From positions 1 through 64,000 of the forward strand of contig NZ_NVXQ01000021.1 in NCBI RefSeq assembly GCF_002733955.1: DNA of 64,000 nucleotides, given 5' to 3'. Both the position numbers and the translations under genes were made by a program. Each line of letters starts with the position of its first letter. Positions within the stretch are counted from its first letter, which is position 1. Shown piece after piece: positions 30,063 to 55,349 of this stretch. The notes beneath the pieces are model-generated. The model was not told the DNA's origin. It made no database searches and was given only the letters and a program-made list of their open reading frames with translations. This DNA is from Hoeflea sp. (GTDB taxonomy: Bacteria; Pseudomonadota; Alphaproteobacteria; Rhizobiales; Rhizobiaceae).

Positions 30063-30224
30063 CGGCCAGGCTTGGCGCGCTATGCCGGGTCAGTCTGCGT
30101 GCACCGAGAGCAGTAAGAACCAATCGTCGCTGGTCGTCCTGCACGGTGATAATGTCGTAGACAGGCTCTGGTTTTGGCGCGGCAGATTCTAAATTCTGCT
30201 CAAAGCGCAATCAGGGTTGAGACA

Positions 30225-37873: not shown

Positions 37874-37924
37874 GCCCAAAATCCTGTGCGCGCCTCGCAG
37901 AGGCCCATGTCGCGATCAGGCCAT

Positions 37925-40955: not shown

Positions 40956-42995
40956 TCAGCCGCGGTTGCGCCGTCCGCCGCGCCGCCGTCCGGCGCCGGG
41001 TTCGATGCCGTCGGCGGCATCGGTGTCCTTGGAGCGTTCGGGCAGCTTGACCACTTCGGTGAGCCTCGGGAAGGCGTCGATCTTGTTGGGGAAGGCCATG
41101 GCGTTGACGAAATGCTCCTGGAATTTCGGTTCCAGCGCGGTTTCGATCTTCTCGATGCGGGTGACCGTCTGTTCGATCTCGCGACGGTGAGCGCGGTTGA
41201 GCAGCGCCATGCGGGCACCGGTGCCCGCGGCATTGCCGACCGCCTTGACCTTCTCCAGATCGCAATCGGGCACGAGCCCGAGCACGAGCGCGTATTTCGG
41301 GTCGATGAAGGAGCCGAAGGCACCGGCCAGTCCGATGCGGTCGACATGGTCGATGTTCTGCTTGTCCATCAACAGTTTGACGCCGGCATAGAGTGCTGCC
41401 TTGGCGAGCTGGATGGCGCGGACATCGGTCTGGGTGACCATCAGCTTCTGTTCGCCGTCGCGCAGCATATAGGAGAATGTGCGGCCATTGGTGGTGATGC
41501 GCGGGCTGCGGGCAGCCAGGTCGCCATTGATGACGCCGTCTTCGGTGATGATGCCGGCGAGATACATCTCGGCGATGATCTCGATGATGCCGGAGCCACA
41601 AACGCCGGTGACGCCGACTTTCTTCGCGGCTTCATCAAAACCGGGTTCATCGGACCATTGCTCAATGCCGATAACACGGTAGCGCGGCTCAAGCGTTTCC
41701 GGGTCGATGCGGATGCGTTCGATAGCGCCGGGGGCTGCACGCTGGCCGCAGGATATTTCAGCGCCCTCGAAGGCCGGGCCGGTGGGCGAGGAGGCGGCCA
41801 CCGTGCGGGTGGCATTGCCGAGCACGATTTCGGCATTGGTGCCGACATCGACCAGCAGCATCATCTCGTCCTGGCGGTGCGGGCCTTCGGTGAGCGTGGC
41901 GGCCGCAGCATCGGCGCCGACATGGCCGGCAATGCAGGGCAGCATGTAGACCCGGGCGCCGGGGTTGAGCGGCAGATCGATCTCGGAGGATTTGACGTTG
42001 ACCGCGCCGGAAACGGCCAGCGCAAATGGTGCGCCGCCGAGTTCGGTCGGGTCGATGCCGAGGAACAGGTGGTGCATGATCGGGTTGCCGACAAAGACGG
42101 CGTCGAGAATGTCGCTGCGCTCGATCTCGCCCTGGGCGCAGACCTTGTCGATCAGCCCGTTGATGGCTTCGCGCACGGCCTTTGTCATGCCTTCGCGGCC
42201 TTCGGGGTTCATCATCACGTAGGAGACGCGGCTCATCAGATCCTCGCCGAAGCGGATCTGCGGGTTCGACGTGCCGGAAGAGGCCAGCGTGCGACCCGAG
42301 AGAAGCGACGACAGGTGCATGGCGATGGTGGTGGAGCCAATATCGCAGGCGATGCCATAGGCTTCGTTCTTGAGGCCGGGATAAAGAGCAACCAGCGTTG
42401 CGGGCCCGCCTTCGACCGGCTCGTGGACCGCGGCGGTGACTTTCCAGTCGCCCGCGCGCAGGATCTTCTGGACTTCTCCAAGCAGATAGGTGTCGATTGC
42501 GAGGTGCTTGAATCCCCAGTCGGCCTCGACCGCTGCCAGCAGCCGGTCGAGATCGCCGAGCGGCTTGTGCATGTCGGGCTCCTCGACCTCGACATAACAC
42601 ATCTGCACCGCCGGGTTGCGCTCGATCAGGCGACCATCGGAATCCTTGCGCACAACTTGCGCGTTGACCACGGCGTCCTGCGGGATGTCGATGACGAGAT
42701 CGCCGAGGATCTTCGCCGAGCAGGACAGCCTGCGGCCGGCTTTCAGGTCGCGTTTTTCTGCGTAGCGTACCTCGTTGCCGCCGAAGGGCGAGATGTGCTC
42801 GTTGGAGGAGGTGATGCCGTGCTTGGCAAACACGCCTTCCTGCACGTCAACCTGGCAGCGTCCGCAGATGCCACGGCCGCCGCAGACGCTTTCCACATGC
42901 ACGCCCAGTTGCCGTGCGGCTTCGAGAACAGGCGTGTCGGTGGCAAAGCGTCCGCGCTTTCCCGACGGCATGAACAGGACAAGGTGTTCGGTCAT
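40956..42995 (-). CDS. RACo/RamA-like reductive activator of corrinoid proteins
   Basis: Encodes 679 residues; start ATG 42995 is 8 bases after the upstream stop. It reduces inactive cob(II)alamin in a corrinoid protein to cob(I)alamin using ATP. The N-terminal 2Fe-2S ferredoxin has Cys38, 44, 47 and 92 (ESVCGGRGICGRC, RRLSCS). The middle and C-terminal parts form the ASKHA ATPase fold of DUF4445/RACo: GIACDIGSTTIAMHL at about 210-225, LLVDVGTNAEIVLG, and GVCGSGIIEIIAEM. The last 14 residues are Arg/Gly-rich (GAGRRRGGRRNRG), like other proteins of this cluster. It should serve the corrinoid protein at 48657. Confidence 0.9.
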   Translation of the reverse strand: MTEHLVLFMPSGKRGRFATDTPVLEAARQLGVHVESVCGGRGICGRCQVDVQEGVFAKHGITSSNEHISPFGGNEVRYAEKRDLKAGRRLSCSAKILGDLVIDIPQDAVVNAQVVRKDSDGRLIERNPAVQMCYVEVEEPDMHKPLGDLDRLLAAVEADWGFKHLAIDTYLLGEVQKILRAGDWKVTAAVHEPVEGGPATLVALYPGLKNEAYGIACDIGSTTIAMHLSSLLSGRTLASSGTSNPQIRFGEDLMSRVSYVMMNPEGREGMTKAVREAINGLIDKVCAQGEIERSDILDAVFVGNPIMHHLFLGIDPTELGGAPFALAVSGAVNVKSSEIDLPLNPGARVYMLPCIAGHVGADAAAATLTEGPHRQDEMMLLVDVGTNAEIVLGNATRTVAASSPTGPAFEGAEISCGQRAAPGAIERIRIDPETLEPRYRVIGIEQWSDEPGFDEAAKKVGVTGVCGSGIIEIIAEMYLAGIITEDGVINGDLAARSPRITTNGRTFSYMLRDGEQKLMVTQTDVRAIQLAKAALYAGVKLLMDKQNIDHVDRIGLAGAFGSFIDPKYALVLGLVPDCDLEKVKAVGNAAGTGARMALLNRAHRREIEQTVTRIEKIETALEPKFQEHFVNAMAFPNKIDAFPRLTEVVKLPERSKDTDAADGIEPGAGRRRGGRRNRG

Positions 42996-43002
42996 TATGA
43001 GG

Positions 43003-43965
43003 TCACGCTCCCCCGGAGCGGCCGGCGCGTCCGCCGCGGCGGCGGCCACCGCCATCGCCTGAAGGTGCGGTGGATTGCGGGGCAGGGGCGGATCCGGCCA
43101 CGTTCGGCTGGTAGTCCTTGTAGGTCTTGATCCAGGTCATGCAGTTCGGGTCGGTGCCGTTGAGCACATTGGCTGCGCGAACGGCTTCCATTTCCTGCGG
43201 ACGGCAGGGGTTCATGATCGCCGATGTCATGCCGGCGCCGATGACCATCGGGATGAAGCCGGCATTGATGCCGTGGCGGTGCGGGATGCCGAATGAGATG
43301 TTGGAGAGGCCGCAGGTGGTGTTGACCTTGAGCTCGTTGCGCAGCCGATGCAGCAAGGCAAAAACCTGCTTGCCGGCGGTGCCCATGGCGCCGATCGGCA
43401 TGACCAGCGGATCGACAACGATGTCGTGCGGCTTGATACCGTAATCGGCAGCATGCTCGACGATCTTCTTGGCAACGGCGAAGCGGACGTCGGGATCTTC
43501 GGAAATACCGGTCTCGTCGTTGGAAATGGCGACCACCGGCACGTCGTATTTCTTGCACAGCGGCAGGATGGCTTCGAGCTTTTCCAGCTCGCCGGTGACC
43601 GAGTTGACCAGCGGACGACCCTTGGCGACCTTGAGCGCTGCTTCAATGGCTGCCGACACCGAGCTGTCGATGGACAGCGGCACGTCGACCAGACCCTGGA
43701 CGATTTCCAGTGTCTTGACCAGAAGGCCGGGCTCGGTCTCGTTGGGATTGACCGAGGTGACGCCAGCATTGACGTCGAGCATGGTGGCGCCGGCGGCAAC
43801 CTGTTCCAGGGCATCCTTGATCACGGTGTCGAAATTGCCTTCGACCATCTCGGCGGCGAGCTTCTTGCGGCCGGTCGGATTGATGCGTTCGCCGATCACG
43901 CAGAAGGGCTGATCAAAACCGATGATCACTTCTTTGGTGGCGGAGGCGACGATGGTACGGGTCAT
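43003..43965 (-). CDS. Methyltetrahydrofolate:corrinoid methyltransferase (MtgA/AcsE-like)
   Basis: Encodes 320 residues, ATG 43965 after AAGGACC. The pterin-binding TIM barrel: FCVIGERINPTGRKKL at the N-terminus, ATMLDVNAG near 60, PLSIDSSVSAAIEAAL, and NTTCGLSNISFGIP towards the C-terminus are the standard folate-site blocks shared with MetH, AcsE and MtgA. It would move the methyl group from the corrinoid protein to tetrahydrofolate. The last 20 residues (GGGRRRGGRAGRSGGA) form an Arg/Gly tail absent from classical MtgA. It is translationally close to the RACo-like gene and has its own palindromic operator. Confidence 0.88.
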   Translation of the reverse strand: MTRTIVASATKEVIIGFDQPFCVIGERINPTGRKKLAAEMVEGNFDTVIKDALEQVAAGATMLDVNAGVTSVNPNETEPGLLVKTLEIVQGLVDVPLSIDSSVSAAIEAALKVAKGRPLVNSVTGELEKLEAILPLCKKYDVPVVAISNDETGISEDPDVRFAVAKKIVEHAADYGIKPHDIVVDPLVMPIGAMGTAGKQVFALLHRLRNELKVNTTCGLSNISFGIPHRHGINAGFIPMVIGAGMTSAIMNPCRPQEMEAVRAANVLNGTDPNCMTWIKTYKDYQPNVAGSAPAPQSTAPSGDGGGRRRGGRAGRSGGA

Positions 43966-43987
43966 GTTCGGTCCTTGCAGTGAAGAC

Positions 43988-44003
43988 ATAAAGATTTGTT
44001 TAT
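43988..44003. promoter_or_regulatory. ATAAAGAT-type palindrome before the methyltransferase/RACo operon
   Basis: Reads ATAAAGATTTGTTTAT on the plus strand, 23-38 bases upstream of the methyltransferase ATG on the minus strand. With flanks (ACATAAAGATTTGTTTATATC) it resembles the element before the Bmt gene at 53166-53181. A regulator of methionine/one-carbon genes such as ArsR-type SahR is a candidate, from memory of such motifs in Rhizobiales. Confidence 0.55.
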
Positions 44004-44043
44004 ATCATTATAGCGGTTCGGCGGTGAGTGCAAGCCTCCGGGC

Positions 44044-45144
44044 TCAATCCTGAGCGTCGGCATCCCCTGCTGCTCCGGCCATTTCGTGCAGCATGTGCTT
44101 GGGCTCTTCGAGAATTTCTTCCATGCGCTCGGCCACCATCTGGTCCACGGGATTGGGTTCCTTGCGCCATGGCCTGCGGCCCTTGAGGACGCCGGAATCA
44201 TGAACGATCTCGGCGACGAACTCCTCCTGGCGATAGGCCATGACGTGAATTCCGGAGATGCCCTCGATTTCCTTGACCTCGTTGATGATGTCGATGCAGA
44301 GCTGCTTGCCTTCCTTCTTCTGGTCCTCGGCGCCTTCCAGCCGTTTGATGATGTGATCGGGAATATGCACCCCGGGCACATTCGAGCGCATCCACTTGGC
44401 GGTTCGCGCTGATGCCAGCGGGCCGACACCGCACATGACAAAGCACTCCTGGTCGAGCCCCATGTCGCGCACCTGCTGCATATAGGCGCGCATCATCGGC
44501 ACATCGTAGCAATACTGGCTCTGAACGAACTGGGCGCCGGCGGCAATCTTCTTGGCGAGCCGGTGCGGGCGGAAATCATGCGGTGGGGCGAAGGGATTGA
44601 TGGCAGCGCCAAGAAACACCGTGGGCGGGCTGGTGAGCTTGCGGCCGGAGAGGAATTTGGAGTTGTCGCGCATGATGCGGATGGTTTCCAGGAGCGACAT
44701 GCTGTCGAGATCGAACACCGGCTTGGCGCCGGGCTGGTCGCCGGCCTGCACGCCGTCGCCGGTCAGGCAGAGGACGTTCTGCACGCCCATGGCGGAGGCG
44801 CCGAGAACATCGCCCTGGATCGCGATGCGGTTCTTGTCGCGACAGGAAATCTGCAGGATCGAGGCATAGCCCATGCGGGTGAGAAGGGCGCAGATGCCGA
44901 CAGACGACATGTGTGCATTGGCGCCCGAGGCATCGACAGCGTTGATGCCGTCGACCCAGCCGTCAAAGATCGCCGCGCGCTCGTAGACATCGTGCGGATT
45001 GGCGCTGTCTGGCGGGTTGAGCTCGGCGGTGACGGCGAATTCGCCGCGGCGCAGGATGCGTTCCAGCCGTCCGAGAGAGGAGTGGCCGGGAAGAGGCTCA
45101 AGCAGGGCGCTGGGATCGTGCGGATTGGTGTCGGGCTGGGTCAT
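44044..45144 (-). CDS. metF: MetF-type methylenetetrahydrofolate reductase
   Basis: Encodes 366 residues from ATG 45144, which overlaps the MetV-like stop by 4 bases; the longer frame is a shadow of that gene. A TIM-barrel MetF: RRGEFAVTAELNPPDSANPHDVYERA at the N-terminus has the catalytic Glu in TAELNPP, FVQSQYCYD and the FAD-site LCLTGDG are present. In acetogen-type MetFV enzymes it interconverts methylene- and methyl-tetrahydrofolate. Here, with methyl groups arriving from the corrinoid route, the oxidising direction (methyl to methylene) is likely. It is not the only possible MetF in the genome. Confidence 0.88.
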   Translation of the reverse strand: MTQPDTNPHDPSALLEPLPGHSSLGRLERILRRGEFAVTAELNPPDSANPHDVYERAAIFDGWVDGINAVDASGANAHMSSVGICALLTRMGYASILQISCRDKNRIAIQGDVLGASAMGVQNVLCLTGDGVQAGDQPGAKPVFDLDSMSLLETIRIMRDNSKFLSGRKLTSPPTVFLGAAINPFAPPHDFRPHRLAKKIAAGAQFVQSQYCYDVPMMRAYMQQVRDMGLDQECFVMCGVGPLASARTAKWMRSNVPGVHIPDHIIKRLEGAEDQKKEGKQLCIDIINEVKEIEGISGIHVMAYRQEEFVAEIVHDSGVLKGRRPWRKEPNPVDQMVAERMEEILEEPKHMLHEMAGAAGDADAQD

Positions 45145-45731
45145 TGCGCGGCACCCTCGGCGAGGGCCGCTTCGCGATCGGCCGCTGCGGTGGCGGTGAC
45201 GCGGAGCCAGGACGAGGTTTCGCGCAGCGACTGATCGACCGGCTTCTGCACCGTGAGGATGTTGTCGCGGCCGTCCATCTTCTGGGCGCCGGACCAGGCC
45301 TGGACCCAGACGCAGGGCATGTCGGGCTCGACCTCGCAGTGACCATTGGCACGGACCCCGCCACAGGGACCGTTGCGCAGCTGCTTGGGGCAGTTCATCG
45401 GGCAGGACATGCCAGTGGATGACAGGGCGCACTGGCCGCACATGCGGCAATCGAAGAGGAACCCCTTGGCGTGCTTCTCGATGAACTTGATCGGGCCCTC
45501 GGCCCGTTCATAGCCAACTGCCTTCCACACTGGGTGCAGCTTGAGAAAAAGTTCGGCGAAATGGGCATAGAACCATTCGAGCGTCCGGGCGTGACGCACC
45601 GACCACAGTCTGATGGCAAAACTTCGGGCCTTGCGGCCGGTCGCCGAGACGCCCGACGGTTTGTAGGACGTCTTCTGGGCGGCCTTCTTGTTGAGGCTTG
45701 CCTGGGTCGGTTTCGTCGGTTCGTCAGCCAT
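45141..45731 (-). CDS. metV: MetV-like protein (MTHFR C-terminal domain family)
   Basis: Encodes 196 residues, ATG 45731 within the preceding gene's end. The core holds Cys95, 98, 101, 110, 114, 123 and 132 (CRMCGQC, SCPMNCPK, GPCGG, HCEV), as in the MTHFR_C family and MetV of acetogens, which binds zinc or Fe-S and partners MetF. The N-terminal 90 residues are a basic, helical extension. Coupling by a 4-base overlap to metF supports a MetFV complex. In an aerobe this is unusual, since most MetF proteins work without MetV. Confidence 0.87.
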   Translation of the reverse strand: MADEPTKPTQASLNKKAAQKTSYKPSGVSATGRKARSFAIRLWSVRHARTLEWFYAHFAELFLKLHPVWKAVGYERAEGPIKFIEKHAKGFLFDCRMCGQCALSSTGMSCPMNCPKQLRNGPCGGVRANGHCEVEPDMPCVWVQAWSGAQKMDGRDNILTVQKPVDQSLRETSSWLRVTATAAADREAALAEGAAQ

Positions 45732-46029
45732 GGCTCTCCCTGCCTCCGCCCTTGACGAGGGCGACCAGCCGCTCCTTGTCGTAGGCTGCTTCAAGCTCTG
45801 CCGTCGCCTTGTCGGCTTCGGCTTCCAGATCGTCGGAGACTTCCACCGGATCCGCCCGCCGCCATTCGGCAAGGTAATCGTCGGTCTCGGCGGCACCGGT
45901 GCGCATGGCACACATGTCGATCGCTTCGGTGAATCTGAGCGAGAGCTCCCGCTTGGCGGTCGCACGTCCCTTCTTGATGATCACCTGGGCGGGAATGTCG
46001 CGCCAGTAGACGACGATTCGGTTGGCCAT
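45724..46029 (-). CDS. 'Virulence factor' family small protein (PF13769-type)
   Basis: Encodes 101 residues, ATG 46029 after AAGGAGAC, overlapping the MetV start by 8 bases. The N-terminal MANRIVVYWRDIPAQVII followed by KKGRATAKRELSLRF is the pattern of the small 'virulence factor' family. The name is historical, and no virulence role is implied here. In Alphaproteobacteria the family co-occurs with MetV/MetF and corrinoid methyltransferases, so a role as an assembly or regulatory subunit of the MetFV complex is a reasonable guess. Confidence 0.75.
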   Translation of the reverse strand: MANRIVVYWRDIPAQVIIKKGRATAKRELSLRFTEAIDMCAMRTGAAETDDYLAEWRRADPVEVSDDLEAEADKATAELEAAYDKERLVALVKGGGRESHG

Positions 46030-46171
46030 TTGAGGTCTCCTTGATGGTTACAATGCGCATGGGAATTCTTGACAGCTTCGCTCACGACGACGCGCGGCGC
46101 GTCAAAAACGACCTGCGTGATGCGGGGGATATTTTGGATGGGGTCCCGGGTCAAACCGCGGCGGGGGATAA

Positions 46172-46942
46172 CTACCAGACGCGTTTGACGAGCCCGGTCA
46201 TCAGGTAGGTCCAGATCGGCGGGTGAAAGCGCTGCACAGAGGGCAAGTCGCTGGAACTGGGCTGAAGATTGCCGTTCAAGGCGTCTTCGACGGCACGCAG
46301 GGCGATGTCGCGGGAGCCTGCCGCCATCGCCAGCGAATCGGTCATCAGCGTCTCGCGCGGATCGGGTGTCAGAAAAGCCTGATAGAGTGTTTCGCCGGTA
46401 TCGACGCCGGCATCGACCAGATGCACGGTGGTGCCGTAGTTTTCATGATCGCCGGTGGCGCGGGCCCACCAGCCGCCGGCCAGCCCGCGGTATTTCGGGT
46501 TGATGCCGGAGTGATAGTTGATCACCGGGCAGGAGATTGCGGCAAGGGTAGACTTCGACAGCATCCGGCAACCGGCCAGGAAAACGACATCCGGTTTCTT
46601 CGCTGCTATCAGGTCAAGGCAATCGCTAGCGTTTGCAGAGGAAACGCGGGTGACCGGTATTTCAGGCGCCAGTTCGGGCTGAGCGCCGCTGGTGGTGATG
46701 ATCTCGTTGCTCCGGCTTTGTGCGAAACGTTTGCCGAAACGGGAAATCAGCATGGTCCCGAACTGGCCGGCGGTCTGAAGCCAGCCGATCTTGCGGGCCC
46801 GGCGCTTGAGAAACAGGGCTTTTGATTCAGGCTGTTCAACAACCACTTCAAGAGTGTCGAAGCGGTTCGCCAAAGCGTTGACGATGACCCAGGCATAGGC
46901 GCCGCCGGCCGTGACTACGATGATCTTGTTCTGACTTGCCAT
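46172..46942 (-). CDS. Formyltransferase-family protein
   Basis: Encodes 256 residues, ATG 46942. The C-terminal half is a formyltransferase fold with the catalytic triad Asn142, His144 and Asp181 (INYHSGINPKYRG and LVDAGVDTGETLYQ), as in PurN/Fmt/ArnA. The N-terminal half is Rossmann-like (IIVVTAGGAYAWVIVNAL) but has lost the usual GAR features. It resembles formyltransferases acting on nucleotide-sugars or amino sugars in surface polysaccharides. It would use 10-formyl-tetrahydrofolate. Its link to the one-carbon cluster may be incidental. No sugar genes are adjacent. Confidence 0.8.
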   Translation of the reverse strand: MASQNKIIVVTAGGAYAWVIVNALANRFDTLEVVVEQPESKALFLKRRARKIGWLQTAGQFGTMLISRFGKRFAQSRSNEIITTSGAQPELAPEIPVTRVSSANASDCLDLIAAKKPDVVFLAGCRMLSKSTLAAISCPVINYHSGINPKYRGLAGGWWARATGDHENYGTTVHLVDAGVDTGETLYQAFLTPDPRETLMTDSLAMAAGSRDIALRAVEDALNGNLQPSSSDLPSVQRFHPPIWTYLMTGLVKRVW

Positions 46943-47052
46943 GATGATCCCACCGAGATGAGATCACAGGGTAATCCGGCCGGGTTAAGATCCGGCTAGC
47001 GGCGAGCCTGACCGGAGCAGGCGGGGCTGAAGGCGAGGGCTTCGACCGATGG

Positions 47053-47697
47053 TCAGAAGATATGCATCAGGAATGCACCGGTGGCGGTGACCACGAAACC
47101 GGCAACGGCAAAGGAAATCACACCGGCCAGCACGCCCAGAGCCAGGCAATTGCCGTCGCGTTCGGTATGGGCAACGCCTAAGATGGCGACGGCAAAGGCC
47201 GGCAGCCAGTTGCCGAAGGGGATCGGCAGAACGCAGGTGATGGCCAGGAGGAGGGCGAAGATGCCGAACAGCCGTTCGCGAATCGGCCCGCCCAAGGGCC
47301 AGTTGCGCGGACGAACCCAGTTTTCGGCGCTGCGCAGCCAGGGGGAAACGCGGGTGACCATGCGCTGAAACGTGGCGCGGTCCATCGAGTAGTTGGCCAG
47401 AGCGCGCGGCAGCCAGACCTTCTGGTAGCCGATCACCATCTGCCAGGCGACAAACACCATCGGCAAACCGAGCACCATGGTGGCGCCGGGTGGCAGCGGA
47501 ATAAGGTTTGGAACCGCGAACACCAGCAAAAATGCGCCAAAGGAGCGGTCGTCGAGCGCATTGGCAATCTCGCGCATGCTGATGCGTTCGCCAGCATCCC
47601 GCGCCAGACGCTCGAGAAGTTCCGACAGCTTCTCGGGATGCTTCCTTGTGCTGGCTGCGATGCCCGGAACGGTGACAGCGGCGGATTGGTGGTTCAC
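47053..47697 (-). CDS. exoD: ExoD-family membrane protein
   Basis: Encodes 214 residues from a GTG at 47697. ExoD-like: a soluble N-terminal helix region (KLSELLERLARDAGERIS), then membrane segments and the conserved FGAFLLVFAVPNLIPLPPGATMVLGLP block (about residues 53-80). ExoD of rhizobia influences exopolysaccharide and alkaline tolerance. It sits beside a formyltransferase gene, so both may concern the cell surface. It is not obviously part of the methyl-transfer operon. Confidence 0.85.
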   Translation of the reverse strand: MNHQSAAVTVPGIAASTRKHPEKLSELLERLARDAGERISMREIANALDDRSFGAFLLVFAVPNLIPLPPGATMVLGLPMVFVAWQMVIGYQKVWLPRALANYSMDRATFQRMVTRVSPWLRSAENWVRPRNWPLGGPIRERLFGIFALLLAITCVLPIPFGNWLPAFAVAILGVAHTERDGNCLALGVLAGVISFAVAGFVVTATGAFLMHIF

Positions 47698-47818
47698 TGC
47701 GAATACCCTGAATGACGACTACCTGTCATCTAAGCACGGATTGCTTAAAAATTATGGCAATAAAGCGCGATTGGGCACCGGGAGCAAAAATATTTGCATT
47801 TGCAAATTTCGCACGCCG

Positions 47819-48430
47819 TTAAAGCGGTGCCAAGGCATCTGCCAGGTCGCCATAACCGGTGAATTGCCGTTCATAGCGCAAACCGAGTCTCTCTGCCGCG
47901 GCCCGGGCCTTTGCTTCCAGCTCGGGATCATCGGTCTGGGCCAGGTAGAGCGCGCGCTCGTAATGGGCGAAATAGGTCTCGCGCAGTTCGGGAAAGCGGT
48001 CGAGCCCGAGCGGGCGGATCAGGAAGGCCTCGAAATGCCGGGCCAGAAAGTCGGTGATGAAGAAGGTGGTGATCATGTCATCGCCGGAAGCTTCGAAAGC
48101 CTGGTTGCCGACATAGAAGGAAAAACAATGCGGCCCTTCGATCCGCTCGACGCCGTGGGCGGCGCAGACCTTGTCGAGTTCGCCACCGGTGCCGCAATCG
48201 GCATAGCCGATGAAGATATGCTCAAAGCCCTCGTCGCGCGCCTTGCGGATGGCACGGTCGACCGCGGGTGCGATGCGATCCGGATAGTGATGGTAATTGG
48301 CGTCGATACATTTGAGATCGACGTGATCATGGCCAAGCTGGCGATTGATGGCCAGCACCTCGCGGCCGATCATGCCGCAAGCGATCACGCGCACGGTCTT
48401 CCGGGGCTGGTCTGATGATTGCTCCACCAT
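47819..48430 (-). CDS. DUF1638 family protein
   Basis: Encodes 203 residues, ATG 48430 after GAAGGC. DUF1638 features: VRVIACGMIGREVLAI at the N-terminus, IFIGYADCGTGGELDKVC (Cys near 101 and 111) and FFITDFLARHFEAFL. The conserved cysteines may bind metal. The family is repeatedly encoded beside MttB-type methyltransferases and corrinoid proteins in methanogens and bacteria, but the role is unknown. Its own leader of about 150 bases has inverted GGCGCCAA/TTGGCGCC arms. It lies downstream of the corrinoid gene, after a terminator. Confidence 0.85.
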   Translation of the reverse strand: MVEQSSDQPRKTVRVIACGMIGREVLAINRQLGHDHVDLKCIDANYHHYPDRIAPAVDRAIRKARDEGFEHIFIGYADCGTGGELDKVCAAHGVERIEGPHCFSFYVGNQAFEASGDDMITTFFITDFLARHFEAFLIRPLGLDRFPELRETYFAHYERALYLAQTDDPELEAKARAAAERLGLRYERQFTGYGDLADALAPL

Positions 48431-48575
48431 GGTGTTGCCTTCTCAACTGGGTCATGTTCGCTCAACGCGCACCCTGATGCGATCCGGCGCAGCACGGCGT
48501 TGCTCGACGACGCATCTGCGCTCACGAGACATGGGGCACAGGGCGCCAACACGACATGAGACGGCATTGGCGCCA

Positions 48576-48636
48576 ACAAAAACCAGCCGGTCACTAGGAC
48601 GACGACGCTCTCGTCAACGTCCGCTTTGGCTGGTTG
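48576..48636 (-). terminator. Terminator after the corrinoid-protein gene
   Basis: AACCAGCC (48581-48588) pairs with GGCTGGTT (48628-48635), with an inner GACG...CGTC stem, and the minus-strand transcript ends in TTTTTG. The structure ends the corrinoid-protein transcript or attenuates read-through to DUF1638. Confidence 0.65.
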
Positions 48637-48656
48637 CCGGGCAGGCCGGTCTCGGA

Positions 48657-49355
48657 TCAGGCTTCGGCGCGGCTGTTATGACGGCGCTTGATCAGTTCCT
48701 TGGCGGTCTCGACCGCAACGGCTGCGTCGCGGCAATAGGCGTCCGCACCCACGGCCTTGCCGAATTCCTCGTTGAGAGGCGCGCCACCCACCAGAACGAT
48801 GAAATCGTCGCGGATGCCCTTTTCCTTCATCGTGTCGATGACGACCTTCATATAGGGCATGGTGGTGGTCAACAAGGCCGACATGCCGAGGATGTCGGGT
48901 TGCTCGCGCTCGATTGCCTCGATGTATTTTTCGACCGGGTTGTTGATGCCAAGGTCGATGACATCGAAGCCGGCGCCTTCCATCATCATGCCGACAAGGT
49001 TCTTGCCGATGTCGTGGATGTCGCCCTTGACGGTGCCGATGACCATCTTGCCGAGTTTCGGAGCGCCGGTTTCGACCAGAAGCGGACGCAGGATGAACAT
49101 GCCGGCTTTCATCGCGTTGGCGCTCATCAGCACTTCGGGGACAAACAGGATGCCGTCGCGGAAGTCTTCGCCGACGATGCGCATGCCTTCGACCAGGGCC
49201 TGGGTGAGAACGTCGTAGGGGGTCCAGCCGCGCTCGAGAAGGATGTTGGTGCCTTCCTCGATTTCTTCCTTGAGCCCGTCATACAGATCGTCATGCATCT
49301 GCTGGACAAGTTCATCATCGGAGAGTTCGGACAGGATGATTTCTTCGTCAGACAT
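48657..49355 (-). CDS. Corrinoid (B12-binding) methyl carrier protein, MttC/MtgC-like
   Basis: Encodes 232 residues, ATG 49355 after AAGGGAGAAA. An N-terminal helical cap (about 1-95, B12-binding domain 1) is followed by the Rossmann-like B12-binding domain. The base-off ligand motif DxHxxG is Asp112, His114, Gly117 in GTVKGDIHDIGKNLV, with MSALLTTTM and VGGAPLNEEF downstream. The corrinoid shuttles the methyl group from the MttB-type enzyme to the folate methyltransferase. It is divergent from the mttB-type gene. Acidic N-terminus (EEIILSELSDDE). Confidence 0.92.
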   Translation of the reverse strand: MSDEEIILSELSDDELVQQMHDDLYDGLKEEIEEGTNILLERGWTPYDVLTQALVEGMRIVGEDFRDGILFVPEVLMSANAMKAGMFILRPLLVETGAPKLGKMVIGTVKGDIHDIGKNLVGMMMEGAGFDVIDLGINNPVEKYIEAIEREQPDILGMSALLTTTMPYMKVVIDTMKEKGIRDDFIVLVGGAPLNEEFGKAVGADAYCRDAAVAVETAKELIKRRHNSRAEA

Positions 49356-49606
49356 CGGTTTCTCCCTTGAATGCACCCGCCCGGTGGCTTGATGCACCAG
49401 ACCCATCGTGCATAGCGATATAGGGGAATGATTGCAAAATGTTCCTTGAAAGCGACGCGCATATTCAGAAAAGCGACGGGCCGTGATTTATCCGATATTC
49501 CTGCTGCGCCAAGGCTTGGCGCTCAGAGGAATGTGCAGGGACGTGTTTTGGCTAGCATGGTCTCATCGGCGTGATGGTGCGCCAACCCAGAATCAGCAGG
49601 CATTTC

Positions 49607-51196
49607 ATGGCGCATTCAGACACGCTTTCCACCCCTGAATTGGCTCAAGAAGCTGCACCCGAAGCGAGCGCTGGACGTCGCGGCAGAGGTGCTGCAGCGC
49701 GGCGGGCGCAACGTTCCGGCGGCGGCCCGGGTGTGTCGATGCCCTATATCACCCGAAAACTCGGGGTCTACGAGGTGCTGGACGAGGAAGGCCTGAGCCT
49801 GATCGAACGCAATGCCGACACGATTCTCGAGGAAATCGGCATCGAGTTTCGCGATGACGCGGAGGCACTCGAACTCTGGCGTCAGGCCGGCGCGCATGTA
49901 ACCGGCGAGCGGGTCCGGTTTCCCAAAGGCTTGTGCCGTGAACTGCTGAAGACCGCTCCGGAAGTGTTTACCCAGCATGCGCGCAACCCGGCCCGGTCGG
50001 TGCAGATCGGCGGCAATGCGACCGTGTTTGCTCCGGTCTATGGCCCGCCCTTCGTGCGCGATCTCGATGGCGAGCGGCGCTATGCGACGATTGAGGATTT
50101 CCGCAATTTCGTGAAGCTCGCCTATATGGCGCCGTCGCTGCACCACTCCGGCGGCACCGTTTGCGAGCCGGTCGACGTGCCGGTCAACAAGCGCCATTTC
50201 GATATGGTCTACAGCCACATGAAATACAGCGACAAGCCGTTCATGGGCTCGGTGACGGCACCGGAACGGGCCGAAGACACGATCGAGATGTGCAAGATCC
50301 TGTTTGGCGCCGAATTCGTCGATCAGAACTGCGTGACGCTGAACCTGATCAACGCCAACTCGCCAATGGTGTTTGACGAGACCATGCTCGGGGCGCTGAA
50401 GGTCTATGCCCGCAACAACCAGGCCTGCGTGGTGTCACCATTCATTCTCGCCGGTGCGATGAGCCCGGTGACCGTGGCCGGCACGCTGACCCAGATTCTG
50501 GCTGAAGTGCTGGCGGGCGCGGCCTTCACCCAGCTGATCCGGCCAGGCGCGCCGGTGTTGTTCGGCACGTTCGCCGCCTCAATCTCGATGCAGTCGGGCG
50601 CGCCGACATTCGGTACGCCGGAGCCGGCGCTGGTGTCCTACGGTGCTGCGCAGCTGGCGCGGCGTCTGAAAATCCCGTTTCGCACCGGGGGATCGCTGTG
50701 CGGCTCCAAGGTGCCGGATTCGCAGGCCGCGCACGAAAGCGCCTCGACGATCAACATGACGCTGCTGGCGGGCACCAATTTCGCGCTGCATTCGGCCGGC
50801 TGGCTGGAAGGCGGGCTGGTCAGCTCCTACGAGAAATTCATGATTGACGTCGACCAGCTCGGCATGCAGCAGAAATTTGCCGAAGGCGTTGACCTGTCGG
50901 AAACAGGGCAGGCGCTGGACGCCATCGCCGAGGTCGGGCCGGGCAATCACTATCTCGGTTGCGCGCATACCCAGGCGAATTTCCAGCAGGCCTTCTACCG
51001 CTCAGCTCTGGCCGACAACAATTCCTATGAGCAGTGGCTGGCCGAAGGCGAAAAGCGCATCGAGGAACGGGCCCGCAGTCTTTGCCGGTCGTGGCTCGAC
51101 AGCTATGTGGCCCCGGAGCTCGATCCGGCGATTGACGAGGCGCTGTTGGCCTTTATCGCCGAGCGCAAGGATTCGATGCCCGACGCTTTCACTTGA
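49607..51196 (+). CDS. MttB-superfamily methyltransferase, non-pyrrolysine (MtgB-like)
   Basis: Encodes 529 residues from ATG 49607 (the upstream ATG at 49571 is less likely). The frame is uninterrupted (no UAG), so it lacks pyrrolysine and belongs with the glycine-betaine-type MtgB group rather than true MttB. Family blocks: LERNADTILEEIG-type start, SLHHSGGTVCEPVDVP, GSVTAPERAEDTIEM and a TIM-barrel C-terminus with GGLVSSYEKFMIDVD. It should take a methyl group from a quaternary amine and give it to the corrinoid protein. An N-terminal Arg/Gly-rich extension (residues 22-42) is unusual. A transporter for betaine lies nearby. Confidence 0.88.
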   Translation: MAHSDTLSTPELAQEAAPEASAGRRGRGAAARRAQRSGGGPGVSMPYITRKLGVYEVLDEEGLSLIERNADTILEEIGIEFRDDAEALELWRQAGAHVTGERVRFPKGLCRELLKTAPEVFTQHARNPARSVQIGGNATVFAPVYGPPFVRDLDGERRYATIEDFRNFVKLAYMAPSLHHSGGTVCEPVDVPVNKRHFDMVYSHMKYSDKPFMGSVTAPERAEDTIEMCKILFGAEFVDQNCVTLNLINANSPMVFDETMLGALKVYARNNQACVVSPFILAGAMSPVTVAGTLTQILAEVLAGAAFTQLIRPGAPVLFGTFAASISMQSGAPTFGTPEPALVSYGAAQLARRLKIPFRTGGSLCGSKVPDSQAAHESASTINMTLLAGTNFALHSAGWLEGGLVSSYEKFMIDVDQLGMQQKFAEGVDLSETGQALDAIAEVGPGNHYLGCAHTQANFQQAFYRSALADNNSYEQWLAEGEKRIEERARSLCRSWLDSYVAPELDPAIDEALLAFIAERKDSMPDAFT

Positions 51197-51281
51197 ACAA
51201 AGCCCGATAAAGCCAGGGAGACAGGCGGGCAGGACAAGGTGGCAGGCCTCATTCACAAGGAGGTCTGGCGCTCTGCGTTCA

Positions 51282-52034
51282 ATGACCGGGGCAGCGATCG
51301 GGACCCGGGTGAGTAGCCCGCCGCGTGACGCTCAAGTGTTTGCGGCGCTGGAGCCCTTCGGGCTGCAGCCTCGGGGCTGGCTGGTGCCGGATGAAGCTTC
51401 GGCGCCACGACTGGGAAACGGGATGGCTGCCAAAGCCATCTGCCTGGTCGGGCATGGCGGCGGCGGCTTCTGGCCGGTGTTTCAGGCCTGGCGCAGCATG
51501 CATCCGGGCATCGCCGATCCGCTCGATGCCTGGTCGAAGGCGGTCATTGAACCCGTGGCGGCCTTGCTCGGCGGGGAGGCGGTGTTTCCATCCGACCGGC
51601 CGTGGCATCCGTTCCAGCAGTGGGCGATGCAGGCGGAAGCGCTGAAACCGTCACCACTTGGATTGCTGATCCATCCTGACTACGGGTTGTGGCACGGCTA
51701 CCGCGGAGCGATCCTGTTCGCTGAAGCGCCAAATGATGGCGTCTCTGCTCTACCGGGCACAAGCGCCGTGGGTCCTGGCGTCGCGAGACCACGGCCAGAG
51801 GCTGTTCATCCCTGCGATATGTGCTGGGAAAAACCCTGTCTTTCGGCGTGCCCGGTCGGTGCGTTCAGCCCTGACGGTTTTGCAGTCGAAGACTGCCGCA
51901 CATTTGTGACGACGGAGGCCGGCACGACCAGGTGCATGGCTTCAGGCTGCCGGGCGCGGGATGCCTGCCCGGTCGGGCGGCCCTATCGCTATGGGGCTGA
52001 CCAGATCCGCTTTCACATGGCGGCATTCGTGTAG
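51282..52034 (+). CDS. Dicluster 4Fe-4S ferredoxin-like protein next to the MttB-type gene
   Basis: Encodes 250 residues from ATG 51282. The strong AAGGAGG is 17 bases upstream, so an alternative CTG at 51273 is possible. A preceding domain of about 170 residues (FWPVFQAWRSMHPGIADPLD) is followed by two cysteine clusters, CDMCWEKPCLSACPVGAF and CMASGCRARDACPVG, of the type that bind two 4Fe-4S clusters. It follows the methyltransferase gene by 85 bases on the same strand. It could feed electrons to the RACo-like activator, but no direct evidence exists. Confidence 0.78.
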   Translation: MTGAAIGTRVSSPPRDAQVFAALEPFGLQPRGWLVPDEASAPRLGNGMAAKAICLVGHGGGGFWPVFQAWRSMHPGIADPLDAWSKAVIEPVAALLGGEAVFPSDRPWHPFQQWAMQAEALKPSPLGLLIHPDYGLWHGYRGAILFAEAPNDGVSALPGTSAVGPGVARPRPEAVHPCDMCWEKPCLSACPVGAFSPDGFAVEDCRTFVTTEAGTTRCMASGCRARDACPVGRPYRYGADQIRFHMAAFV

Positions 52035-52072
52035 ACGTCAGTGGACGCGGCGCGCGCTTCGGGCTGGCGCAC

Positions 52073-52100
52073 AAAAAAGGCCGGTGCATGTGCGCCGGCC
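52073..52100 (-). terminator. Terminator after Bmt
   Basis: GGCCGGTGC (52079-52087) pairs with GCGCCGGCC (52092-52100) with one wobble and a short loop. The minus-strand transcript then runs into TTTTTT (complement of 52073-52078). It also separates convergent genes. Confidence 0.72.
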
Positions 52101-52126
52101 TCTTGATGTGTGGGCGGTGCCCCGCG

Positions 52127-53137
52127 TCAGCCGCGGCGACCGCGGCGCTCGCGCGTCGGGGCAGGGCTGTCGGTGGCGACCGTGTTGCGCATCGGGCCGA
52201 TGCGTTCGACAATGGTTTCCACGGTCGGGCGCTGTGCCTTGATGTGGTTGTCGACGGCCTCGCGCATGGCGGCAAGGTGATTGCAGGAAGTGCCGCAGCA
52301 ACCGCCGATGATGCGGGCGCCACCGTCGATGGCGAGACGGGCATAGTCGGCCATCAGGGGCGGCGTGCCGGAATAGTGGATCTCGGCGCCCTTGAATTCG
52401 GGGATGCCGCAATTGCCCTTGACCACGACGATGGCCTCGGGATCGGCGGCGGTCATGTCAAGCAGCGAGGACAGGATGTCGGAGGCGCCGACACCGCAAT
52501 TGGCGCCGACGGCAAACGGGCCGTCGCCGATATCGCTGGCAATCGAATGGATGTCACGCGGGTGTACGCCCATCATGGTCTTGCCGGCAGTGTCGAAGGA
52601 GCCGGTGTAGACATAGGGCAGGCCGCAGCGCACGGCCGCTTCGGCGGCGGCGCGGATCTCGTCACGGGCCGACATGGTTTCGATCCAGGCGACGTCGACG
52701 CCACCGGCCTTGAGTCCCTCGATCTGTTCCACGAAAGAGGCGACCGCATCCTCGTAGGTCATGGCGCCCAATGGCACCAGCAAATCGCCGGTCGGGCCGA
52801 CGGAGCCGCCGACGATGACCTTGCGCGGCGCCTTGTCAGCCACGGCTCGGGCAATCTCGGCGGCCTTCTTGTTGAGGGCAAAGACCCGGTCGTCGGCCTG
52901 GTGCAGCTTGAGGCGGTTGCGGGTGCCGCCGAAGCTGTTGGTCAGGATGATGTCGGAGCCTGCATCGACAAAATCCTGATGCAGCTTGGTGATCTTTTCG
53001 GGAGCCGTTTCGAGCCACAGTTCGGGCGCTTCGCCGGATTCCAGCCCCATGGCGAACAGGTTGGTGCCGGTGGCGCCATCTGCAAGCAGGACGCCTTTTT
53101 CGGCCAGCAGGTCGGCAAGCGGGTTGGATACGGACAT
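52127..53137 (-). CDS. bmt: Betaine-homocysteine S-methyltransferase
   Basis: Encodes 336 residues, ATG 53137 after AGGAGA. It transfers a methyl group from glycine betaine to homocysteine, giving methionine and dimethylglycine. Zinc ligands are Cys214 (GANCGVGA) and Cys280/Cys281 (GGCCGTSCNH), and GATGTNLFAMG is the N-terminal substrate-site block. Homologous to Bmt of Sinorhizobium meliloti. The last 8 residues are Arg/Gly-rich (RERRGRRG). An ATAAGGATATCTTTAT palindrome lies 29-44 bases before its start. It provides a second way to demethylate betaine beside the corrinoid route. Confidence 0.9.
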   Translation of the reverse strand: MSVSNPLADLLAEKGVLLADGATGTNLFAMGLESGEAPELWLETAPEKITKLHQDFVDAGSDIILTNSFGGTRNRLKLHQADDRVFALNKKAAEIARAVADKAPRKVIVGGSVGPTGDLLVPLGAMTYEDAVASFVEQIEGLKAGGVDVAWIETMSARDEIRAAAEAAVRCGLPYVYTGSFDTAGKTMMGVHPRDIHSIASDIGDGPFAVGANCGVGASDILSSLLDMTAADPEAIVVVKGNCGIPEFKGAEIHYSGTPPLMADYARLAIDGGARIIGGCCGTSCNHLAAMREAVDNHIKAQRPTVETIVERIGPMRNTVATDSPAPTRERRGRRG

Positions 53138-53284: not shown

Positions 53285-54355
53285 TCAGGCGACGGCCGCC
53301 TCGGAATCGGCTGTCTCATGATCGACCGGGGTAACCATGGCCGAAATCACGTCATGGATGTCCAGCGCGCCGACAGGCTTGCCGTCGCGGTCGGTGACGT
53401 GCGCCATCGAGACGTTGGTGTCGGTCATCTTCTTGGCCGCTACCTCGAGCACAGTTCCCTGCCTGATCGGCATGCCCTGGGGTTCGCCGGACAAGGGTGT
53501 CATCACCATGTCTACCGAGATCACCCGGCCGCGATTGACCTCGCGCACGAAGCTCGAGATGTATTCGTCGGCCGGCCTGAGCACGATTTCCTGCTTGGTG
53601 CCCTGCTGAACCACTTCGCCGTCGCGCAGGATGGCGATGCGGTCTCCGAGCCTTAGCGCCTCGTCAAGATCGTGGGTGATGAAAACCACGGTCTTGCGGA
53701 TTTCCTTCTGCAGGTCGAGCAGAACCGTCTGCATGTCCATGCGGATCAGCGGATCGAGCGCGGAGAAGGCCTCATCCATCAGCAGGATCGGGGCGTCGTT
53801 GGTCAGGGCGCGGGCAAGACCGACGCGCTGCTGCATTCCGCCCGAAAGCTGGTTCGGATAGTTGTCTTCAAATCCGTCCAGTCCGACGCGGGAAATCCAG
53901 CGGCGAGCATGTTCTTCCTGCTCCTTGCGCGGGATTCCCTGGATCTGGAGACCATAGACCGCGTTCTCCAGCACTGTCCGGTGCGGCAGAAGCGCGAATT
54001 TCTGGAACACCATGGCCGTCTTGCGGCGGCGGAATTCCCGCAGTTCGGTCTCGTTCATCTTGACCACATCCTCGTCGCCGACGATGACTTCGCCGGCGGT
54101 AGGATCGATCAGCCGGTTGATGTGACGGATCAGCGTGGACTTGCCGGAGCCCGACAGGCCCATCACCACCTGGATGCCGCCTTCGGGCATCTCGATGTTG
54201 ATGTCCTTGAGGCCAAGCACGTGATTGTGCTTGTCGTTGAGCTCGGCCTTGGTCATGCCGCCCCTGACGGCATCGATGTAGTCTTCCGGGTTTGTGCCGA
54301 AGATCTTGTAGAGGTTTCGGATACTGATGCCGATGCCTGTGTGTTGCTCAGCCAT
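53285..54355 (-). CDS. proV: Glycine betaine/choline ABC transporter ATPase, ProV-like
   Basis: Encodes 356 residues, ATG 54355 after TGGAGG, overlapping the proW stop by 8 bases. Walker A GLSGSGKS is at about residue 70, signature LSGGMQQRVGLARAL, Walker B ILLMDEAFSALDP, switch His in FITHDLDEAL. Residues about 285-345 form a C-terminal CBS-type domain (VDMVMTPLSGEPQG, VTDRDGKPVGALDIHDV), as in osmoregulated ProV. It couples ATP hydrolysis to import by ProW with ProX. Confidence 0.92.
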   Translation of the reverse strand: MAEQHTGIGISIRNLYKIFGTNPEDYIDAVRGGMTKAELNDKHNHVLGLKDINIEMPEGGIQVVMGLSGSGKSTLIRHINRLIDPTAGEVIVGDEDVVKMNETELREFRRRKTAMVFQKFALLPHRTVLENAVYGLQIQGIPRKEQEEHARRWISRVGLDGFEDNYPNQLSGGMQQRVGLARALTNDAPILLMDEAFSALDPLIRMDMQTVLLDLQKEIRKTVVFITHDLDEALRLGDRIAILRDGEVVQQGTKQEIVLRPADEYISSFVREVNRGRVISVDMVMTPLSGEPQGMPIRQGTVLEVAAKKMTDTNVSMAHVTDRDGKPVGALDIHDVISAMVTPVDHETADSEAAVA

Positions 54356-55235
54356 GAACCACCTCCAGGTGACGCTGCAGACGCTTGCCGTAGGCCTGGC
54401 TTGCGCGGTCGAAGATAATGGCGATGCCGACAATGGCGAGACCATTGAACATGCCGAGAGTGAAGTACTGGTTGGCAATTGCCTTGAGCACCGGCTGGCC
54501 GAGGCCCTGGACGCCGATCATGGATGCGACAACGACCATGGCGAGTGCCATCATGATGGTCTGGTTGATGCCGGCCATGATGGTCGGCAGCGCCAGCGGC
54601 ATCTGCACGTCCTTGAGCCGTTGCCAGTTCGAAGAGCCAAATGCGTCGGCGGCTTCGAGCACATCCTTGTCGACCAGGCGGATGCCCAGATTGGTCAGGC
54701 GGATGATCGGCGGGATCGCGTAGATGACGACCGCGAGCAGGCCCGGCACCTTGCCGATGCCCAGAAGCATGACAACCGGAATGAGATAGACGAAGCTCGG
54801 CATGGTCTGCATGACGTCGAGGATCGGGTTGACGATTGCCTGCAGCCGGTTTGAGCGCGACATGCCGATGCCGATCGGGATGCCGATGACAATGGCGAGC
54901 AAGGTGCAGACGAAGGTCATGGCGATCGTCTTCATCGTGTCGTCCCACATATCGAAGAAGCCGATTGCGAGAAGGGTGACGATCGAGCCAAGGGTGATCT
55001 TCCAGGATCGGCTGGCGATCCAGACAAGCACGGCGACCAGCAGCAGGATCAGCGGCCATGGCGTGTTGGTCATGAAGCGTTCGGAATAGATCAAGAACCA
55101 GCGTACCGGTTCGAACATGGTTTCGATGGTTTCGCCATAGGCGCGGGTGAAGTCTCGAAACCCGCCATCGATGGCTTTCTTGAGGGCGCGTAACGCGTCG
55201 TCATTCAAGTGTGGAAATGTCGTGAGCCAGTCCAT
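54348..55235 (-). CDS. proW: Glycine betaine/choline ABC transporter permease, ProW-like
   Basis: Encodes 295 residues, ATG 55235 after AAGGGACC. The N-terminal 60 residues are soluble, then about seven membrane segments. The contact loop with the ATPase reads EAADAFGSSNWQRLKDVQMPLALP, the ProW-type EAA motif (about residues 198-222). It forms the channel for betaine import with ProV and ProX. A hairpin separates it from proX. Confidence 0.92.
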   Translation of the reverse strand: MDWLTTFPHLNDDALRALKKAIDGGFRDFTRAYGETIETMFEPVRWFLIYSERFMTNTPWPLILLLVAVLVWIASRSWKITLGSIVTLLAIGFFDMWDDTMKTIAMTFVCTLLAIVIGIPIGIGMSRSNRLQAIVNPILDVMQTMPSFVYLIPVVMLLGIGKVPGLLAVVIYAIPPIIRLTNLGIRLVDKDVLEAADAFGSSNWQRLKDVQMPLALPTIMAGINQTIMMALAMVVVASMIGVQGLGQPVLKAIANQYFTLGMFNGLAIVGIAIIFDRASQAYGKRLQRHLEVVHG

Positions 55236-55314
55236 TTTTTCTGGTCCCTTGAAGTTTTCTTATTGCGGTCTGGATTTGGCTATCAAAGGTTGTGCGCCCC
55301 ACCCCAACATTGAA

Positions 55315-55337
55315 AGGGCGGCCCGATGGGCCGCCCT
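55315..55337 (-). other. Hairpin between proX and proW
   Basis: AGGGCGGCCC (55315-55324) pairs perfectly with GGGCCGCCCT (55328-55337), a 3-base loop. On the minus strand only a short TTTC follows, so it is a weak terminator or stabiliser that should leave proX mRNA in excess over proWV. Confidence 0.6.
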
Positions 55338-55349
55338 GATGACCCGTGA

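Follow-up and report, generated by a model that had tools for sequence, protein, structure and literature searches.

A probable clustered, split B12-dependent methionine synthase and betaine-type demethylase in Hoeflea, with arginine-rich tails on four of its enzymes

A gene cluster at positions 40956–53137 of a 64,000-nucleotide stretch of Hoeflea sp. DNA (hereafter the window; NCBI RefSeq assembly GCF_002733955.1, contig NZ_NVXQ01000021.1, positions 1 to 64,000) very likely encodes a split, hub-type B12 methionine synthase that doubles as a betaine-type demethylase, the known MtgBCDE/RamA system. The assignment rests on sequence comparison: the model of the methionine synthase MetH is covered stepwise by three window proteins, MtgE (model positions 5–325), MtgD (320–594) and MtgC (631–863). 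Because the organism's own genome (G000; 4.86 Mb, rated 100% complete) yielded only four partial MetH matches, no full MetH and no match to MetE, MtgC, MtgD, RamA and MtgE are very probably its methionine synthase. MtgC is the sole PF02607 match in this genome, alongside four MttB paralogues. The RamA/RACo-type activase and a DUF1638 protein stand in place of the MetH activation domain, in a genome with no full MetH (no search for PF02965 was made).

The most telling gene, at the edge of the span, encodes MtgE (Bmt), the homocysteine S-methyltransferase module (52127–53137, minus strand; NF005718, 559 bits, cut-off 338). MtgD, the methyl-tetrahydrofolate (methyl-THF):corrinoid methyltransferase and pterin module of split MetH, lies at 43003–43989 (minus; PF00809, 103 bits; NF005719, 392 bits, cut-off 259). 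MtgC, the shared corrinoid protein with cap and B12 domains (48657–49355, minus; PF02310 and PF02607), carries the DxHxxG motif as GDIHDIG. The corrinoid reductive activase RamA (40956–43055, minus) has an N-terminal 2Fe-2S domain followed by RACo linker, middle and C-terminal domains (PF14574, 304 bits; PF17651, 168; PF17650, 86; PF00111, 28), and in the NCBIfam search scored 387 bits with the AcsV model, under the cut-off of 800. The DUF1638 protein is encoded at 47819–48430 (minus; PF07796, 94 bits), and the MtgB-like MttB-superfamily methyltransferase at 49571–51196 (plus; PF06253, 777.6 bits), in a frame with no in-frame UAG whose start is more likely at 49607 than at 49571. Methylene-THF reductase MetF occupies about 44044–45144 (minus; PF02219, 113 bits; start taken from the translation) and a MetV-like DUF5981 protein 45141–45731 (minus; PF12225, 94 bits). 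Three other identities were rejected: canonical MetH, with a best match of 163.7 bits against the TIGR02082 cut-off of 1010.85 bits; pyrrolysine-type MttB (TIGR02369), given the uninterrupted frame and 274.8 bits against a cut-off of 525; and the anaerobic MtgC models NF047995 and NF047996, which gave 177 and 218 bits against cut-offs of 310 and 370.

An initial annotation of the window had named an MttB-superfamily enzyme without UAG, a DxHxxG corrinoid protein, a methyl-THF methyltransferase, a RACo-type activator, MetF, a MetV-like protein and a neighbouring CobN-type gene. Pfam and NCBIfam searches recovered all of them, the first six within 40956–53137, with the methyltransferase, activator, MetF and MetV-like protein each matched by Pfam models. 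The homocysteine S-methyltransferase, DUF1638, an iron–sulfur (Fe-S) protein encoded after mttB and a dimethylglycine/sarcosine dehydrogenase (DMGDH/SarDH)-like gene had gone unnamed. Homology, together with published genetic and proteomic work on orthologues, supports the route that it proposed from a quaternary amine to methyl- and methylene-THF; the reading needs widening, the same proteins being very probably the methionine synthase too.

The cluster belongs to a published system, in which the paradox of such chemistry in an aerobe is already outlined. In Ruegeria pomeroyi, MtgBCDE is a dual methionine synthase/glycine betaine demethylase, and mutation of mtgC or mtgD leads to methionine auxotrophy and leaves the cells unable to use glycine betaine even when methionine is supplied (Mausz et al. 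2025, PMC12478193). A three-part split methionine synthase was described in Phaeobacter inhibens, where mutants in the three split-MetH genes share their behaviour and DUF1638 is tied genetically to B12 reactivation (Price et al. 2018, PMC5764234). In both papers, which concern aerobes, reactivation is the likely role of RamA and DUF1638. The contrast with strict anaerobes drawn in the initial annotation is thus out of date, the two papers reporting the system in aerobes, and an anaerobe-only system is ruled out. Its question of how cob(I)alamin stays active in air is likewise no new puzzle, reactivation by RamA and DUF1638 being published in outline; the Fe-S neighbour is a candidate for part of the answer.

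All components of R. pomeroyi MtgBCDE are common to the Hoeflea cluster; the genes are dispersed in R. pomeroyi and clustered in Hoeflea, which has in addition the Fe-S protein after mttB, of which no mention was found in the accessible part of PMC12478193. With P. inhibens, Hoeflea has in common the homocysteine, pterin and B12 pieces, a RamA-like protein and DUF1638, and unlike P. inhibens clusters them with MttB, MetF and MetV. In Sinorhizobium meliloti, MtgBCDE, two reactivation genes and a cobalamin operon sit together (PMC12478193). S. meliloti has a MetH as well (PMC5764234); R. pomeroyi is described as having no metH (PMC12478193). An annotated S. meliloti record (labelled pSymB, 3.7 Mb) has a near-identical order of methyltransferase and reactivation genes, and the same cluster is present in Paracoccus aminovorans, where the 24.7 kb viewed contain no mtgE. 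Desulfitobacterium MtgB/MtgC/MtgA, like the Hoeflea cluster, combines an MttB-superfamily methyltransferase with a corrinoid protein.

In the methionine direction, MtgD would move the methyl group from methyl-THF to cob(I)alamin on MtgC, and MtgE would transfer it from MtgC to homocysteine. In the catabolic direction, MttB would shift a methyl group from a quaternary amine onto MtgC, MtgD would hand it to THF for oxidation by MetF/MetV, and the residual demethylated amine would pass to DMGDH/SarDH-type enzymes. RamA, with ATP and its 2Fe-2S cluster, would act with DUF1638, and perhaps with the Fe-S protein encoded behind mttB, to regenerate cob(I)alamin from cob(II)alamin, so that oxidation in air would be repaired rather than prevented.

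For this Hoeflea strain we infer both the substrate and the direction of reaction from sequence comparison and gene content, glycine betaine being the likeliest of the quaternary amines that MttB would accept. The window MttB scored 977 bits with PDB 4yyc and 417 bits with the glycine betaine methyltransferase 9yce, against 397, 342 and 195 bits with 9yce for the other three MttBs of the genome, scores that do not by themselves settle the substrate. Betaine catabolism would fit three neighbours: a glycine betaine/choline-type ABC transporter with ATPase, permease and OpuAC-type binding protein (53285–56360, minus; TIGR01186, 353 bits, cut-off 326.6; PF04069, 207 bits), a GbdR-like GlxA/AraC regulator (36872–37879, minus) and a DMGDH/SarDH-like protein with DAO, FAO_M, GCV_T and GCV_T_C domains (30174–32786, plus), for which no NCBIfam model scored above its cut-off.

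Two observations weigh against the assignment of the cluster as a combined synthase and demethylase. The GbdR-like regulator scores below the cut-off of its model (NF052371, 365 bits against 480), and the MtgE homologue Bmt of P. inhibens made methionine directly from betaine or dimethylsulfoniopropionate in vitro (PMC12366255), so MtgE, by analogy, may also work alone. The latter activity, together with the model name of NF005718, betaine–homocysteine S-methyltransferase, would favour MtgE as a stand-alone betaine:homocysteine methyltransferase merely sharing the locus. We consider this improbable, given that the P. inhibens split-MetH mutants behave alike (PMC5764234) and that MtgE bears an arginine (Arg)-rich tail of the same kind as other MtgC partners, described below. 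By score, MtgE is also nearer to 1q7m (138 bits), which we take to be T. maritima MetH, than to 1lt7 (51 bits), presumably human BHMT. A purely catabolic demethylase, with methionine made elsewhere, is still less probable: MttB, MtgC, MtgD, RamA and MetF would suffice for that route, and genomes G033, G141, G128 and G219 do combine MttB and MtgC with a second corrinoid-domain frame of MetH-like length, whereas G000 has no full MetH or MetE match and its cluster includes MtgE.

The partner genes recur across relatives, which argues against a chance cluster. The best 80 of at least 584 confirmed MtgC relatives were taken as the locus set, and up to 10 kb on each side of MtgC was searched in all 80 loci (tblastn, E ≤ 1e-10; some loci end at a contig edge). 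RamA was found in 68, MtgD in 70, MetF and MetV in 57 each, DUF1638 in 76, MttB in 76 (in L040 a 47% paralogue) and MtgE in 53. The five top-ranked loci, with 92–95% MtgC identity, come from four Hoeflea genomes and one alphaproteobacterial metagenome-assembled genome. Alignment A2 was made without L073, which has a stop codon, and without L076. Among 144 genomes drawn evenly across Alphaproteobacteria (the class-wide sample, G000 included), MtgE scored above its cut-off in 25, and MttB was matched in 32, including all 25 with MtgE. The 24 MtgE genomes other than G000 all have MttB and RamA above their cut-offs and an MtgC relative of 76–86% identity, and 23 of them have MtgD above its cut-off.

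Four of the cluster's enzymes carry short Arg/Gly-rich tails, C-terminal on RamA (GAGRRRGGRRNRG; 40959–40997, minus), MtgD (GGGRRRGGRAGRSGGA; 43006–43053, minus) and MtgE (TRERRGRRG; 52130–52156, minus), and N-terminal on MttB (AGRRGRGAAARRAQRSGGGPG; 49670–49732, plus); those of RamA, MtgD and MttB were read from the translations. Structural relatives align short of the tails: the alignment with RACo 3zyy (631 residues) ends at RamA residue 663 of 699, that with the AcsE-type methyltransferase 2e7f (262 residues) at MtgD residue 291 of 328, and that with the MetH homocysteine domain 1q7m at MtgE residue 304 of 336. In the window MttB, the 9yce alignment begins at residue 66. Both 2qne and 9yce, which we take to be Desulfitobacterium MtgB (9yce being listed as glycine betaine methyltransferase), show in their deposited chains just 19 and 4 residues, respectively, ahead of the aligned domain and no tail like that of the Hoeflea MttB.

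A C-terminal tail was scored as at least 5 Arg within the last 20 amino acids (aa), and for the 80-locus set the count covered complete open reading frames (ORFs) that were 120 aa or longer and cleared an overlap filter (RamA, 64 ORFs from 68 loci; MtgD, 58 from 70; MtgE, 44 from 53). Tails were present on 63/64 RamA, 47/58 MtgD and 44/44 MtgE proteins. Among the other families of these loci none was found at the C-terminus of MetF (0/52), MtgC (0/70), DUF1638 (0/66), MttB (0/73), the formyltransferase-like protein (0/41) or the PF13769 protein (0/17), and 2/30 MetV and 30/693 other ORFs had one. In the class-wide sample, with frames set by tblastn, tails were found on 24/27 MtgE, 22/24 MtgD and 23/25 RamA proteins; the 28 MtgE loci included the window's own and three below the model cut-off, and one was cut by a contig end. 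Both MtgD failures have an Arg-rich stretch slightly further inward.

MttB start codons are guesses, and N-terminal counts discriminate less well than C-terminal ones. Class-wide, PF06253 gave 123 matches, of which 30 were scored over a 25-residue window and 80 over 20 residues. All 30 had at least 5 Arg (one segment, L189, is possibly out of register); 75 of the 80 had at least 5 and 79 at least 4. The MttBs of L255–L257 and L258–L260 were judged by eye, and the full-length match G027:C1 and three partial matches were left out. The background in G000, over 539 coding-like ORFs that include its own MttBs, was 7/539 at the C-terminus and 53/539 at the N-terminus; in S. meliloti, over annotated coding sequences (CDS) of at least 100 aa, it was 2/109 and 11/109. 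S. meliloti has tails on all four proteins, and P. aminovorans on three, mtgE not being in view. Tails recur in about twenty alphaproteobacterial families, and almost every MttB paralogue examined has one. No description of them was found in the accessible texts searched, the main text of PMC12478193 among them.

All four MttBs of G000 start with an Arg-rich segment, the three beyond the window (L002–L004) being encoded at C35:309609-311108, C39:210683-212185 and C2:31768-33258; other genomes have up to 11 full-length copies. The C2 copy lies after a GcvT-domain dehydrogenase-like gene and before an aldehyde-dehydrogenase-like gene (names assigned by eye). Three divergent MttBs in other genomes (L255, L256 and L257) are each directly followed by a divergent corrinoid gene of their own, and these genomes also hold the shared MtgC.

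Somewhat short of an even chance, in our judgement, is the reading that the Arg-rich tails of MttB, MtgD, MtgE and RamA dock these clients on acidic MtgC and so replace the covalent linkers of MetH. MtgC has a net charge of -20 and a conserved acidic N-terminal segment (MSDEEIILSELSDDELVQQMHDDLYDG; 49275–49355, minus; alignment A1); class-wide, 24 of 25 loci have 9–13 acidic and 0–2 basic residues among its first 30, the remaining locus, L213, being out of frame. The four tailed families have relatives that touch a corrinoid protein in solved structures: 7xcn pairs MttB with its corrinoid protein, 4c1n involves RACo and 4djd AcsE. Four genomes, G033, G141, G128 and, from another class, G219, have MttB, MtgC and a second corrinoid-domain match in a long frame (955–1249 aa, MetH-like by length). 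Tails were read on their MttBs (leaving out L395, one MttB of G128, which gave no match) and on MtgD in G033, G141 and G219, where the C-terminus is in view. MtgE above the cut-off was not found in G033, G141 or G128, and G219 was not searched for it; tails kept without such an MtgE in three of the four suggest that the tail tracks MtgC rather than MtgE. DUF1638 has no tail despite its genetic link to reactivation; if the tail marks contact with MtgC, any association of DUF1638 with MtgC may be indirect. For MtgC the AlphaFold2 model was weak (mean predicted local distance difference test score, pLDDT, 61) and was not used.

Several observations weigh against docking. MtgC is not alone in having an acidic start: among the first 30 residues, the dedicated corrinoid protein of L257, whose MttB is tailless, has 11 acidic and 2 basic, and the other two dedicated corrinoid proteins 7 and 4, and 7 and 2; in the 30 aligned residues compared, 7xcn_M has 10 and 2 and 1y80 7 and 1. 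The window MtgC has 11 and 1. Acidic starts on these other corrinoid proteins slightly lower the likelihood of docking. The three MttBs with a dedicated corrinoid gene gave a mixed outcome, L257 having no tail and L255 and L256 an Arg-rich start. In addition, the tail is absent from RamA of G013 and G069 and from MtgE of G069 and G050, and MtgE of G073 has 4 Arg.

There is close to an even chance that the tails instead bind RNA, polyphosphate or another polyanion, or are tags for solubility or turnover. RNA binding is common among Arg/Gly-rich tails, and two of the few G000 proteins with an Arg-rich C-terminus resemble, by eye, a DEAD-box helicase and SmpB, that is, RNA binders; the acidic starts of other corrinoid proteins point the same way. 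A general polyanion-binding role is less easily squared with the distribution of the tails, which among the ten families counted are confined to those four that should contact the corrinoid protein, with MetV at 2/30. Drift in GC-rich genomes, with CGN and GGN codons accumulating at the termini, is very improbable: the window is 58–66% GC, the linkers are of low complexity and most hosts of tailed proteins are GC-rich, but tails persist in G051, with loci of 32–36% GC and AGA at 11 of 21 Arg codons of the MtgE, MtgD and RamA tails, and the background of C-terminal tails given above is low. Docking could also be part of a broader scheme, just as tentative as docking itself, in which unrelated enzymes each gained a short Arg-rich tail recruiting a single MtgC and a dedicated MMACHC/QueG-like Fe-S protein helps the shared corrinoid to stay reduced under air.

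That protein, encoded downstream of mttB (51282–52034, plus), is compact, with about 250 residues. It was found in 68 of the 80 loci; in 65 of these it shares the strand of mttB and lies no more than 1.5 kb from it, and 8 cysteines (Cys) are invariant across 41 sequences of the family. No Pfam model matched at E ≤ 0.001. The AlphaFold2 model is of good confidence (mean pLDDT 85.7), and the 50 Foldseek matches listed, of 127 at E ≤ 10, were all MMACHC, QueG (epoxyqueuosine reductase) or RdhA (reductive dehalogenase). The best E-value was 6.4e-5; among the matches listed, 18 had E ≤ 0.001, all of them MMACHC or its worm homologue, and query-normalised template-modelling (TM) scores were 0.35–0.53. 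The window protein itself matches neither the MMACHC model PF16690 nor the QueG model, and 21 of the 41 family members matched the former at E ≤ 1 (best 0.0012) and 22 the latter (best 4.8e-4), below profile membership in both cases. The predicted cobalamin fold would be common to the Fe-S protein, MMACHC (CblC), QueG and RdhA. QueG and RdhA also have a Cys-rich C-terminal part, as the Fe-S protein does; MMACHC is not known to have an Fe-S cluster, and the Fe-S protein differs from these relatives in its compact size. On this structural model we regard the Fe-S protein as a candidate small cobalamin-handling protein, possibly a reductase for MtgC.

It is unlikely, though less so than the rival accounts of the cluster weighed above, that this is an unrelated ferredoxin, NapG-like for example, carried along by gene order. 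The best single-sequence match was to part of the NapG model (20 bits; cut-off 269), 25 of the 41 family members matched that model, and the S. meliloti annotation reads ferredoxin; against this stand the structural matches and the position beside mttB in 65 of 80 loci. In S. meliloti and P. aminovorans the protein is annotated only as ferredoxin or hypothetical, and no description of its likely nature was found in the accessible texts searched. In the class-wide sample it was found in 1 of 69 loci, most of them 4–5 kb long, and may therefore be an accessory largely of Hyphomicrobiales. Matches in a plasmid collection comprised four from Sinorhizobium, two from Paracoccus, one from Shinella and a weak one from Methylibium.

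The span also encodes ExoD and two small or C1-related proteins. One is a small protein with no assigned role (45724–46029, minus; PF13769, 94 bits), kept in 70 of the 80 loci, whose family label 'Virulence_fact' is probably misleading. The other is a formyltransferase-like protein (46172–46942, minus), matched in 46 of the 80 loci, for which a C1 link is possible. Cobalamin genes lie nearby: CobN (PF02514, 626 bits), truncated by the window end, CobQ, a CobU-type kinase and CobW.

The locus would account for methionine synthesis in a Hoeflea genome without MetH or MetE, and probably for betaine use as well. Part of the answer to how cob(I)alamin chemistry withstands oxygen may lie with the MMACHC/QueG-like neighbour of mttB, a concrete candidate. 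Docking tags, should the tails prove to be such, would explain how a single separate corrinoid protein can serve a methionine synthase, an activase and as many as about eleven demethylases, and would offer a simple handle for rewiring B12 methyl transfer and a sequence tag by which unknown clients could be found.

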